Assembly: GCA_033239005.1 (NCBI GenBank)
Contig: BSQZ01000004.1
Location: 16,509,507 to 16,573,506, forward strand
Source: Lamellibrachia satsuma
Taxonomy: Eukaryota > Annelida > Polychaeta > Sabellida > Siboglinidae
Direction of reading: 5' to 3'
Length of the DNA: 64,000 nucleotides
Both the position numbers and the translations under genes were made by a program. Below the pieces are notes generated by a model. The model did no database searches. It worked only from the letters and a program-made list of their open reading frames with translations, and was not told where the DNA came from. Positions 3,701-62,800 of this stretch are shown piece after piece. Every line of letters starts with the position of its first letter. Within the stretch, counting starts at the first letter, position 1.

Positions 3701-6700
3701 TTTTCGTTTGTTTACTTAAACTTCTCCCATTTTGATTTAGTAGATAGCTTGATTGAGAGTTTGTGTAGCTTCCGATGCTTCTTTGATTGAAATCGAAGGC
3801 ACTTAATGTGTCTCATCGATGTCGATTTCATAGAACTTATTTATTATTGGCCGCCCAATAAACATATCCATCATAGCATAATTGAGATTTGACCAAAATC
3901 TCAAACTTTTAGAACAAATTCTGAGAAAAAACTAGTGTGATATTGTTGATTGTAGTTACAAATGGTTAGTTTTTACAAACTCTTTTAAGTGCGCTGCCCC
4001 ATTGCAAAATTCAATCGATGTATGAAACATCTGTTAACCCCTTGCCACATGAAACTTATTTTGTGTAGTAACTTACATCAATGTTTTCTGATCATTTCTG
4101 ATCACGAGTAAACTACTAACAATGGTGTTCCTTAATTATGAGAACATTTTTGTTGCTAAAAAACGTGGTCTGATGACCTTCATTGCTGACCTCTGACACA
4201 AACATGCTGCTTGGGGTAAGAAGTGTGGATGGGGTGGAAGGAGTGGGGGTTCGCCCCGGAGAAATTCCAAAGTTCGGAAGGTCAAAGTCCAGTTCTCCAT
4301 CTCTGTGATGTTTGCGAGAATGTCTTCCATGCTTGTCGGCAGCCGCTGCATCATATGAACATTCTTTACATAAACAATTTATACTTCATGTTGTTATTTC
4401 ACTGTCTATATAAGAAATTCATTATTTGTGTCATCAATTCATTATCTATGTAGTCAATTATATATTTACGTAAACCATAAAGAAGCAGACAACTAAGTCA
4501 TTACCTAGATTAATAATTAATTTTCTATATAAACTATTCTTTATATCTTTCAACAGTTCATTATCTATGTACAGTGTAACAAATGTACATAAACAAGTCT
4601 TTAACAATTTCATTAACTATTCATTATGATTAATAATTCAATGTGTATGTAAATAACTAACTATTTCCGTAAATATACATTTACATAAAGAATTAATTTT
4701 TATGATGATGTTGGACTGGCTTCCCAAGAAAAAACTCCATACCACATTTAGATAAGTATGTCCATCGTGGCAAAATAAAATAAACTTATTATTATGATTT
4801 TACCTGCATGAATCTTGAGGTCAAAGTCTGTGACCTTTCTGCTTAGTGTAAGGTCAATCAAATCAAGACTTTCACAATCTTCCTTCGGAGACAAATACGT
4901 GTCAGTTTGTGCTGGATCTAACTCTGATTCCCAATCTGATGCTAAATCCTGGAACATGTAAAGACAAATACGTGTCAGTTTGTGCAGGATCTAACTCTGA
5001 TTCCCAATCTGATGCTAAGTCCTGGAACATGTAAAGGAGGACATTTTTATGACATTAATCCAGTTTTAAAATCATGTTTATTAAATGCTCAGGGAATATT
5101 TTCAACAAAACACATCCATATTTTGTTGCCCTAAAACATGAAGACATCAGAAACCAAAACAAATGAGGACTGCAGTGCACTGTGGGATTATCGGGAGTCA
5201 AATAAGCGATGGTCCCTCCTCTGGTCCTTCCTATTTTAGGCATAAACACAGATGCCGATGTTACTTCATTGACACATTGCTTTTATATTATGCCAAAAAC
5301 TATAACTTGCATGCTGCACCGTCATGCTACTAGTAAACGATACAAGCGCTTGAGTTGGCATGAGCAACTTTTGGAACAATAGACAGTACTCATTAGGAAT
5401 GTCAATCTTCACATGAACTTTGATGGTATATCGTCCCTGTCTGGTATATAAGCTTCATTTTTTCATGGCAGTCGAAGGACTGACGATGAAAACATCTGTA
5501 CTATATGTCTGTGGACACTAGAATGGCCGGGTTTGATCAACAAATACAATGAAAGGGTGACCGAAGAATGTTCAGCAAAATGTTAGGGCGAAAAAAAGCC
5601 AGTTCTTCTGACATTTCGCGCGCTGTTGGACAATCTGGCGGAACCCCTCGCCCCTGCTGGCACATCACTATTCTAAACAACAAGAAATTATTTCATCGAT
5701 TCAGTGCAACATTTTTTAAAAAGTTGTTTTTCAGTGACTTATTTTCAATTATATCGAACAACGAAAAGACGACACTGCACAAAATAGTTAATGGTACAGG
5801 CCAATTAGGGAGACACTTATGTATGCAACGCAACAAATGTAAAACAAATCACAGGGTCGTTAACTTTTTCTGGGGTGATTATTATGAACAGTTGCATATA
5901 TGTTTATCAGATATTTTCAAAATGTAGGCATTTTGTGCATCAAGCGAATCTGACTCCGTTCTCCATTGACTATTGTGAAAGTGGAAAGGCCAGTTGTCCG
6001 TGGACCAAATACTACTCTTCATACAAGTATCAATGGTCATGAGGTCTTGGCACATAATCCAATGCTTGAGCAGTTTTATAATATTCTTGTCGACAACTTG
6101 GGTGCTCGGGCGGCAACAAGCAACCCTTGATTAAGCTCACAGTGCAGCTCGTGTCTGTTTTTTTACTACTGACATCATCTATTTTCAGTCTTTGATGCTT
6201 ATGTACAGTTGGCATTTTATTGACAGTAAGGAAGACCTATGGTTGAGCATTTACTTTTCTAGTTATCTCTCTCTCAGAGGTGCTAAGCGGTTTAACTCAC
6301 ACTTTTCTTCAATTTTAAATCTACCGCATAACCACAATTTCAAGTTCTAAAAAATAAATGTACCAATTTTTTATCCAAATATACATATGAACCTGGTTTA
6401 CAGATTGTTTATACTTAAATATCTGCAGAAAGTGCACTAGAATGATGTATATATACCCTACAATTTAACAATTCTACCCCCAGAATGGGAAACCCTCTCC
6501 CACACTCTCCCTCACTTTTGTTGAACCAGATCTTCAGCTACCTCATGAAAAGTTATCTTCTTCATTTTGTGTAATGTCACCTAAATGGTACCTAAATGGT
6601 ACTTAAATGGTACCTAAATGCTCTCTATAAGTTAGACGTTCACTATTCAGTATTTTGTGCATTTTATTAACCTACTGAGTATATCCCTTACCAGACTGGA

Positions 6701-59800: not shown

Positions 59801-62800
59801 GTTTGTAGCCGTAAAACAGCATTGGCAAGAAGACTTGAATAAATTATAATACGTAATATAAAAGTGATAGATGCAATATCCATAATTCATGCCACCTTTG
59901 CTACAATGTCAATAACCATTAAACATACTTCAAGTCTTCTTATTATGTACAACACAACAGTGAAATAGATGTCAACCAACCTGAAATGACAACAAAATCA
60001 TGTCAAGACATTTTAAGAGGTTGTAGACTAGTTTGCAGTAGTTTATATGACTGATGCTGTGTGGTTTGTGACTGTTGTTGACTCACCGCCAGCATTGACG
60101 TGTTCTGTAGCAGCTTCTGGAAGGCCAGCTGGAGGGCTTCAAACTTATCTCTGCGCTCCTCACTCAATTCTCCCTTTGTCTACAACAGCCGTTACACTCA
60201 TTACATTACAGTCGTTACACTCATTACATTACAGCCGTTACACTCATTACATTACACAAGTAACCCATGCTGCATTAACTGCACAAATTACACATTACAT
60301 TCATTACCCACTTTACATTAATTATACTTGTTATAAGTTACATTCATTACCCACATTATATGTTACATTCATTACCCACATTACATTCATTACACTCAAT
60401 AGAAACTAGCTGCAGGGTTGGGAGAAATTGTACCTGAAAGTTGGGAGGAATTGTACCTGAAGGTTTGGGGGAATTCTACCTGAAGGTTGGGGGAATTCTA
60501 CCTATAAAGTTGGGGGAAGTTCTACCTGTGGAGTTGGGGGAGGATCCTACTTATAGGATTGAGGGAAATTCTACCTGAAAGTTAGGGGAAATTCTACCTG
60601 TAGGGTTTGGGGAAATTCTATGTGAAGGTTGGGGAAATTCTACTTATATTGTTGGGTGAAATTCTACCTGAAGATTGGGGGGAATTCTACCTATAAGGTT
60701 GGTGGAGATTTTATATGAAGGTTGGGGGGATTCTACCTGCAGGATTGTTGGAAATTTTACCTGAGGATTGGGGGAATTCTACCCGCAGGATTGTTGGACG
60801 TTTTACCTGAGGGTTGGGGAAATTCTACCTGCAGGATTGAGGGAAATTCTACCTTCGTTGTTCAGGGAAAATCTACCTGCTGGGTTGAGGATAATTTCAT
60901 TTACAACTGGAACCCTGACAATGACTTTACCTGCAATATCTTCCTGTTCTGATGTTCCATGTTGCGCAGGTTCTCGTGGTCTCTCAGTAGATGTCTGCAC
61001 AGAGAACTGTAGTACTCCTTTAGTAGGTGTCTACACGCCTTCTGTCGTTCCGCCGGCAACATCTGGTAACACACGTGTTAACACACCATGAAAATTTAAC
61101 ACATCATGAAACCAGGTGTATTTCCCAGGACTCTCAAGAAACTGTTCACCACATACAAACTCTCGCGAGACAAATGTGGCCTATTTAAATATTTTGACAG
61201 CCTTTAGGGCAGGTATCAAAGAATCACTTTAAGCAAGTTAACTTTCTAGCAATTTTATTGTAATCACATTCCTTGAACATGCAAGTTTGATTCAAATATA
61301 CTGCCATACATCTGTACCGCAAAGGAAACACAACGTATGTTAACAGTATGTCATAGTGTATGATGTAGCTAATGTTGCATACGTATGTCAGCTGAAACAG
61401 ATATGTGTGTAACTGATGGTTCTCAGTGCATCTGGTGATGGAAGATAACCTACCTTACTCCTTGGTATCGACACTTCATACTTCTCAGACAGTAACCTGC
61501 AGCATAAAACATATATCAACTTCACAGCAGGTACACTACTGAAATATTAATTAATGTACAATGTTTGTAATACTGAACTCAGTACTAAAACAGAATCATC
61601 ATTTTGCAAAGAATGTTGATGAAAAATCTAAACTGCCTAAACAATAATCATCTTTATAGTCAACTCAGTTGTCGAGTTCTTAAAAGGCCACTGGGCAACT
61701 TAAATTCACAAAGCCACCGCTAGGGAAACATCAATATCACATTGCCACCACTCAGGGAACATATCAATATCATATTGTCACCACTCAGGGAACATCTCAA
61801 TATCACAGTAACCACTCATCTCAATACCACTCACCACACAGGGAACATCTTGACATCAGTCACCACTCAGGGAACATATCAGCATACTTATACTTAGTCA
61901 GGAAACCATATAATTTTACCATAATCATTTAACCTAACTCCAAACAAAACTTTACAACCTTTGTGCATTAGACTAATCTGCAAACCTGGCATGGTTTGCC
62001 CCACACAAATCAAGGAATCTCACCTGTACTTGCGGGACAGGAGCCCAGCATAGTCATCACCGCAGTGGCGACAGAAACTCAACAGAATGGGCAGGTTGCT
62101 ATGGTCGTCCTTGTCGTTGCCTATGAGCAGGGTGAGTTGGTTGGCCAGGAGGGGCAGACCCTCCTTCTGGGTGAAGACCCCCACGGTGATGAGGTCAGCG
62201 AAGAAGCGCAGGTCAACACGCAACTTGCTCGGGTTACTTACCTAGAAACCAACGTAGTGTTGTGGTGAGGTTTCATACCGTACAATATTGCATTGAAAAC
62301 CCACTTTAACACCAAGTGTCCAGAATCTTTAACACCAAGTGTCCAGAATCTTCTACTTTAGACTTTCAGACTTCAATTGACAAGCACAATATTCAAACTT
62401 AGAAACAGCGAAACCAGAAAATACATAAGTCTGGCCAAACTGTTGATTATGTCGAGCACATTGCTGATAGACCACTGTGACTTCAATGGAATTCTCCTAC
62501 ACAATGTGTAGATTACCATCCAAAGTAACAAACTCCTGATGGCAAGTGATTAAGAAAGCCATTTTCTTATAGAGAGTTGTTCCTTCATACGTGGCTTGAG
62601 CTTGTCAAATATCTGTCCAGAGTTCTTGATTACCTTTTCGTCTTTCTTCGTGCTCATCAGGATACGATGCCAGTTCTCAAAGAGTGTCTTTGTGAAGTCA
62701 GCGTACCGCTGGTGCATCAGAGAACAGATGTGCAGGGCACATCCCACATCTGACATCTTTAACTTGGCTTCTGTGATCGCTGCAGCCTGAAACATGACTC

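Follow-up and report, generated by a model that had tools for sequence, protein, structure and literature searches.

In a 64,000-nucleotide stretch of the genome of the annelid Lamellibrachia satsuma (assembly GCA_033239005.1, contig BSQZ01000004.1, positions 16,509,507 to 16,573,506; hereafter the window), three tandem arrays in a WD40-repeat gene each carry, in register, the edge of an exon together with that exon's own splice site. Arrays of this kind, in which the repeat unit spans both sides of an authentic exon–intron boundary, have been called mirages, and the set of three in a single annelid gene is a further case of this already named pattern. These arrays are probably ordinary minisatellites whose founding duplication chanced to straddle an exon–intron border, and which have been tolerated with the exon-proximal splice site still working.

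Junction-containing arrays in the WD40-repeat gene

The units of the 73-, 72- and 25-bp arrays extend across an authentic boundary (Table 1), whereas the 28-bp array does so only marginally, with four exonic nucleotides. The AG or GT signals are kept in many units of the 72-, 25- and 28-bp arrays and at both acceptors of the 73-bp array. The layout is clearest in the 72-bp unit, which consists of about 58 nt of exon end followed by 14 nt of intron start, with the donor CAG|GTGAGT between them. In the 73-bp array, words of 20–60 bases centered on the junction recur; a search for such recurrence did not recover the 28-bp array (16028..16594).

Boundaries at the 73-bp array required one adjustment. 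Alignment to a homologous protein (P0002) placed the acceptor of the exon starting at 4804 at position 4941. We reassigned it to 4948, a position at which TTTACATGTTCCAG|G has a score of 10.8 (0.9 at 4941) and the frame remains open. Both positions lie within the 73-bp array, and the conclusion that this array contains a junction is therefore independent of the acceptor chosen.

The 72-bp array retains traces of its history. Units 1, 2 and 4 match the exon copy exactly over 56 nt, and no full unit is more diverged than the outermost one (94.6%). Across the repeated stretch (17931-18507, minus strand), the exon and units 1, 2, 4 and 5 contain a lysine codon, whereas units 3, 6, 7 and 8 encode arginine, as does the protein of the vestimentiferan tubeworm Ridgeia. 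This distribution fits growth of the array from the exon end or exchange between exon and array, although recurrent mutation may also account for it. Moreover, GTATGG occurs at both the exon-side and the intron-side ends of the duplicated stretch, which fits an origin by microhomology or slippage.

Many of the extra splice sites look fully competent. In a splice-site profile trained on the 47 donors and 46 acceptors of the two genes in the window, six of the eight distal donors in the 72-bp array score 12.3, equal to the proximal donor, with one more scoring 9.8 and one lacking GT; as six are as strong as the proximal site, the copies have not been purged. Both acceptor copies of the 73-bp array score 10.8. 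With the authentic sites included, the 72-bp array has 8 donors that exceed the lower quartile of real donors, the 25-bp array 12 and the 28-bp array 20; the 72-bp array also contains eight acceptor-like sites above the corresponding threshold.

By computation in a piece of seven exons, most of the distal sites tested would be harmful if used. Each distal donor tested in the 72-bp array (7/7) and in the 28-bp array (8/8) leads to a stop, at residue 112 or 194; use of the distal 73-bp acceptor changes the frame, after which a stop follows. Among the distal 25-bp donors, 6/11 reach a stop and 5/11 stay open. The 25-bp array itself forms, from end to end in the sense direction, an open reading frame (ORF) that joins the exon without a break (ORF 19729-20307, minus strand), and some distal donors would therefore add residues without a stop. 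The proximal junctions at 20164, 18507 and 16591 agree across three homologous proteins, and no insertion appears in the predicted Ridgeia protein, which has GGVGGTK|IWKYEQ and FSFLR|AHTLG. More generally, the homologous proteins, which are gene predictions, have no inserted residues at 20164 and 18507.

Table 1. Positions within the window of the arrays, exons and genes discussed in the text
Feature	Position	Strand	Remarks
73-bp unit, 2.0 copies, 97% match	4889..5036	-	Holds acceptor 4948 and 60 exonic nt; acceptor repeated at 5021
WD40-gene exon, acceptor 4948 duplicated	4804..4948	-	P0002 alignment (4804-4941), acceptor then shifted
72-bp unit, 9 copies	17917..18569	-	Holds donor 18507 and 63 exonic nt
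WD40-gene exon, donor 18507 duplicated	18507..18644	-	Same boundaries from P0001, P0002 and P0005
25-bp unit, 16 copies	19789..20184	-	Holds donor AAG|GTATGG and 21 exonic nt
WD40-gene exon, donor 20164 duplicated	20164..20283	-	Same boundaries from three homologues
28-bp unit, 20 copies	16028..16594	-	First unit starts at donor of exon 16591-16756; 4 exonic nt
WD40-gene exon, donor CAG|GTAATG at array edge	16591..16756	-	Spliced alignment, splice-site profile
WD40-repeat gene (WDR87-like)	4804..23886	-	19 exons mapped; gene ends not established
UPF2 (regulator of nonsense transcripts 2)	29873..63417	-	29 exons kept
20-bp unit, 28 copies	30881..31446	-	Ends 2 bp before UPF2 acceptor; no exonic sequence
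UPF2 exon, acceptor adjoins array, not duplicated	30800..30878	-	Spliced alignment
23-bp unit, 3 copies	60185..60257	-	Ends 5 bp before acceptor of UPF2 exon 60087-60179; no exonic sequence
20-bp unit, 27 copies	33678..34211	-	Mid-intron, holds no junction; 2 donor-like sites reach lower quartile
23–24-bp degenerate array	60416..60880	-	50 bp off donor 60931, donor outside array; 3 sites reach lower quartile

The two genes and their other arrays

The window contains two genes, the WD40-repeat gene and UPF2, both on the minus strand, and their exon maps derive from homology alone and describe one haplotype. In the WD40-repeat gene, each of the 19 exons is supported by spliced alignment with one or more of three homologues (P0001, P0002 and P0005), and the seven exons from 20164-20283 to 14168-14329 were mapped identically by all three. 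The top homologue among 11 is the Ridgeia piscesae protein NP493_336g03008, with 83% identity across 56% of the draft query, followed by seven mollusc and hemichordate proteins and then by three distant matches; one of the seven (P0006) is named WD repeat-containing protein 87 in its source. When the draft protein was compared with the PDB, the matches listed (60 of 392) were WD40-type and other beta-propeller proteins. A Pfam scan of ten pieces of the window gave matches in four, all under the curated cut-offs (two pieces hit beta-propeller families and two hit families of unknown function), and an Rfam scan gave no matches at gathering scores. Sequence matches in the PDB to ‘regulator of nonsense transcripts 2’ identify the other gene as UPF2, and its exons come from spliced alignment to a human UPF2 sequence. 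We retained 29 of 38 alignment segments and excluded nine doubtful ones, six of them in acidic regions. Positions 4804 and 61062, which bounded the span singled out by an earlier note on this stretch, both coincide with the ends of mapped exons.

Tandem arrays were called with Tandem Repeats Finder (TRF), which returned 102 rows that we merged by hand. Rows with scores below 50, periods outside 9–100 bp or positions before 4000 were excluded from the counts, leaving 41 arrays (period 9–100 bp, score at least 50) that cover about 20% of the gene span. One excluded row, 48647-48681, with a period outside this range, lies 5 bp off the acceptor at 48641 and entered only one tally of all TRF rows; a weak 12-bp repeat at 42495-42522 (TRF score 42), 2 bp off the acceptor at 42492, scored too low to enter the counts.

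The arrays of the earlier note, with their unit sizes and coordinates, were all recovered by TRF and in the sequence itself, and its view that no single mobile repeat underlies them also holds. We reject a common mobile repeat or satellite family, as unit sizes and sequences differ and, in all 153 pairwise comparisons of 18 units from the 41 arrays, the highest local score was 24, corresponding to about 12 matched bases. Among these 18 units, only that of the array at 30418 matched sequence more than 2.5 kb from its own array, and did so across 14 bp. By contrast, the claim that at least four arrays hold their exon's own junction stands clearly for three, marginally for the 28-bp array and not for the 20-bp UPF2 array at 30881..31446, which stops just short of its exon. 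In this array most other copies have CTG where the acceptor has CAG, and the next best acceptor scores 0.4, compared with 11.6 for the real one. With no comparable acceptor in the other copies, the splice site itself is not repeated. Neither this array nor those at 60185 (23 bp), 33678 (20 bp) and 60416 (24 bp) has a unit spanning an authentic boundary, and a class shared by two neighboring genes thus contracts to true cases in the WD40-repeat gene. The arrays at 33678 and 60416, put forward as two further ones with strong donor motifs, were rejected as such, as too few of their sites (Table 1) reach the lower quartile of real donors.

Several other repeats deserve mention. Within a UPF2 intron, a 92-bp unit repeated 25 times forms a 2.3-kb array (56995-59263); its local match of about 12 bases to the 72-bp unit is the strongest of the 153 pairs and is probably due to chance. 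In the sense direction, two mid-intron arrays (30418-30724 and 45508-45832, minus strand) have acceptor-like sites that exceed the lower quartile, 7 in the first and 12 in the second; the antisense direction has none. Two long TA dinucleotide tracts (6918-7087 and 15223-15375) lie in the WD40-repeat gene. Finally, an open frame in a UPF2 intron (35679-36104, minus strand) resembles part of a reverse transcriptase, as judged by reading the ORF text, and is probably an old non-LTR (long terminal repeat) element.

Chance, attraction and function at exon borders

How could such arrays arise without any special process? A founding tandem duplication that straddled an exon–intron border would leave a whole exon with one complete splice site adjoining it; the extra copy of the exon edge and splice site would end up inside the intron, and the authentic site would not be removed. 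Use of the proximal site would leave the protein unchanged and, as the gene works while that site is used, the duplication would be nearly neutral. The intronic copies could then expand like any minisatellite in an array-rich region. We infer that the animal uses the proximal site and that the arrays arose neutrally, founded through microhomology or slippage. Among the options raised in the earlier note, tolerance of arrays in which the proximal site still works is the best supported.

The other option offered there, a process that starts tandem duplication at exon borders, is not supported by this window. We carried out, for the window only, the comparison that the earlier note had proposed genome-wide. 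Junction-centered words of 20 to 60 bases recurred within 1 kb at 3/96 junctions (3.1%; 3/38 in the WD40-repeat gene and 0/58 in UPF2), as opposed to 20–22% across intron positions, 11–15% for those lying no more than 200 bp from a junction and about 2% inside exons. Recurrence at junctions thus falls below that of intron positions, but this is a severe comparison, as authentic junctions are confined to the exon-side end of an array. For the same reason we rejected as unfair a circular-shift null, in which 4/96 junctions fell inside arrays and 19–20 were expected; placement restricted to introns was likewise rejected, as it forbids overlap with exons.

A fairer null considers the founders. Here a founding unit of each array's length was placed at random, but not wholly in an exon, and the chance of straddling a junction was calculated. 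For all 41 arrays, four cases were observed and 2.04 expected (P=0.145), or three and 1.41 when at least ten exonic bases were required (P=0.164). For the 28 arrays scoring at least 100, the corresponding values were P=0.076 and P=0.116. Whole arrays were also placed at random: allowing up to 25 nt of exonic overlap, 2.2 cases were expected among the 41 arrays (P=0.17), and allowing up to 65 nt, 4.7 were expected and four observed (P=0.71), with 2.2 expected among the 16 strong arrays (P=0.18). Arrays within 60 bp of an intron edge, with 60 nt of intrusion allowed, numbered 14/40 compared with 11.4 expected (P=0.21).

Other results weigh against a chance origin and would be expected if exon borders were real hot spots, at which AG|GT microhomology, G-rich exon ends or R-loops promote founding duplications so that junction arrays are over-produced. 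In the founder null, the 16 arrays scoring at least 250 include four cases with 1.06 expected (P=0.017; three cases and P=0.043 with at least ten exonic nt), the 17 arrays of the WD40-repeat gene include four with 0.91 expected (P=0.010; strict P=0.023), and the 15 arrays with at least five copies include three with 0.85 expected (P=0.046). Placement with up to 25 nt of exonic overlap predicts 0.88 cases among the 16 strong arrays (P=0.003), and eight of these, rather than 4.47, lie within 60 bp of an intron edge when 60 nt of intrusion is allowed (P=0.04), a mild excess. Of 40 arrays, 7 cross an intron edge or end no more than 10 bp from it, with 1.28 expected if exon intrusion is disallowed (P=0.0001), and the uncounted 12-bp repeat near acceptor 42492 adds to this tendency. 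Also counting against our main reading, clear microhomology is present at the 72-bp array only; none was seen on inspection of the 73- and 25-bp arrays. Nevertheless, the 10-bp count depends on the intrusion permitted, with 3.34 expected for 20 nt (P=0.04) and 6.67 for 60 nt (P=0.51). The founder-null subsets with P values of 0.01–0.05 were picked post hoc, and their P values are optimistic, as the window itself was singled out for junction arrays. Taken with the lack of a significant excess for all 41 minisatellites and the low recurrence at junctions, these considerations make hot spots an unlikely explanation. A broader version, in which vestimentiferan exon borders initiate tandem duplication, and mirages occur well above background while still exchanging sequence with the coding exon, seems to us similarly doubtful. 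Enrichment at junctions, or a mild attraction to them, is neither established nor excluded by the window data.

Two further explanations invoke consequences of the repeated sites rather than their origin, and both appear very improbable. If the arrays were a functional device regulating splicing of the WD40-repeat gene, for example by generating premature-stop isoforms that are degraded, the full strength of most distal donors and the stops that follow their use at the 72- and 28-bp arrays, where tested, would make sense. The published amphioxus cases, however, appear to splice normally, as far as the available parts of those reports go. That the neighboring gene, UPF2, encodes a decay factor is most simply a coincidence. 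Alternatively, intronic copies could be in the course of recruitment as new exons or introns, as proposed for amphioxus globins; the 72-bp array, with its donors and acceptor-like sites, and the 25-bp array, open in frame throughout, would offer suitable raw material. Such gain fits poorly with homologous proteins that lack inserted residues at 20164 and 18507, with a 58-nt exonic portion that is not a multiple of three, and with distal 72-bp donors that run into a stop at once. Chance duplication across a border, tolerated thereafter, remains our favored account of the three arrays.

Relation to mirages and other boundary duplications

The earlier note knew of no named system of this kind, but the available parts of two amphioxus reports already apply the name mirages to the pattern (PMC3087553, PMC3902484). 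There, mirages are minisatellite-like tandem duplications of exon–intron boundaries, found in Adh3 and in the globin genes BflGb6 and BflGb9 (PMC3087553); troponin C has them too, and imperfect repeats of a similar kind occur in PGBD5 (PMC3902484). As in the WD40-repeat gene, the units span the exon's own acceptor or donor and many copies keep splice signals. Unit sizes are 10–72 bp at Adh3 and 150–160 bp in the globins, according to the sections available, compared with 25–73 bp here. For the globins, reverse transcription–polymerase chain reaction (RT-PCR) suggests that splicing is undisturbed, and intron gain from mirages has been proposed (PMC3087553, in the portion accessible to us). Proximal splicing was thus checked by RT-PCR in the amphioxus globins, and differences in length between haplotypes are a further mark of mirages, whereas the cases described here are known from the genomic sequence of one haplotype. 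They also differ in belonging to an annelid and in occurring three to a gene.

Our results apparently extend mirages, described under that name in cephalochordates, to an annelid. Among the matches listed in a literature search on minisatellites, intron–exon boundaries and annelids, no title indicated an annelid case, which does not prove absence; the available part of an earthworm paper reports minisatellite-length repeats in an intron and mentions no duplicated junction. The presence of mirages in an annelid suggests that the pattern goes with minisatellite-rich introns rather than with one lineage. Three clean cases in which proximal and distal sites are equally strong also provide material for studying spliceosomal choice of the exon-proximal copy, and they sharpen the null model needed for testing junction hot spots.

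More broadly, boundary duplications are recognized in other settings. Internal tandem repeats in human segmental duplications (De Grassi and Ciccarelli 2009; PMC2812944) were likewise detected by TRF and lie at exon–intron boundaries. In the accessible part of that study, repeat copy number alters transcripts or makes introns, whereas the WD40-gene arrays are described at the level of DNA. Intron gain by tandem duplication, as in the potato RdRp case, also involves a duplication that crosses an intron–exon border and supplies splice signals, to judge from the available portions of the two papers (PMC4974935, PMC3443670). Unlike in such gains, no new intron is evident in the WD40-repeat gene, in which the duplicates sit inside an existing intron.

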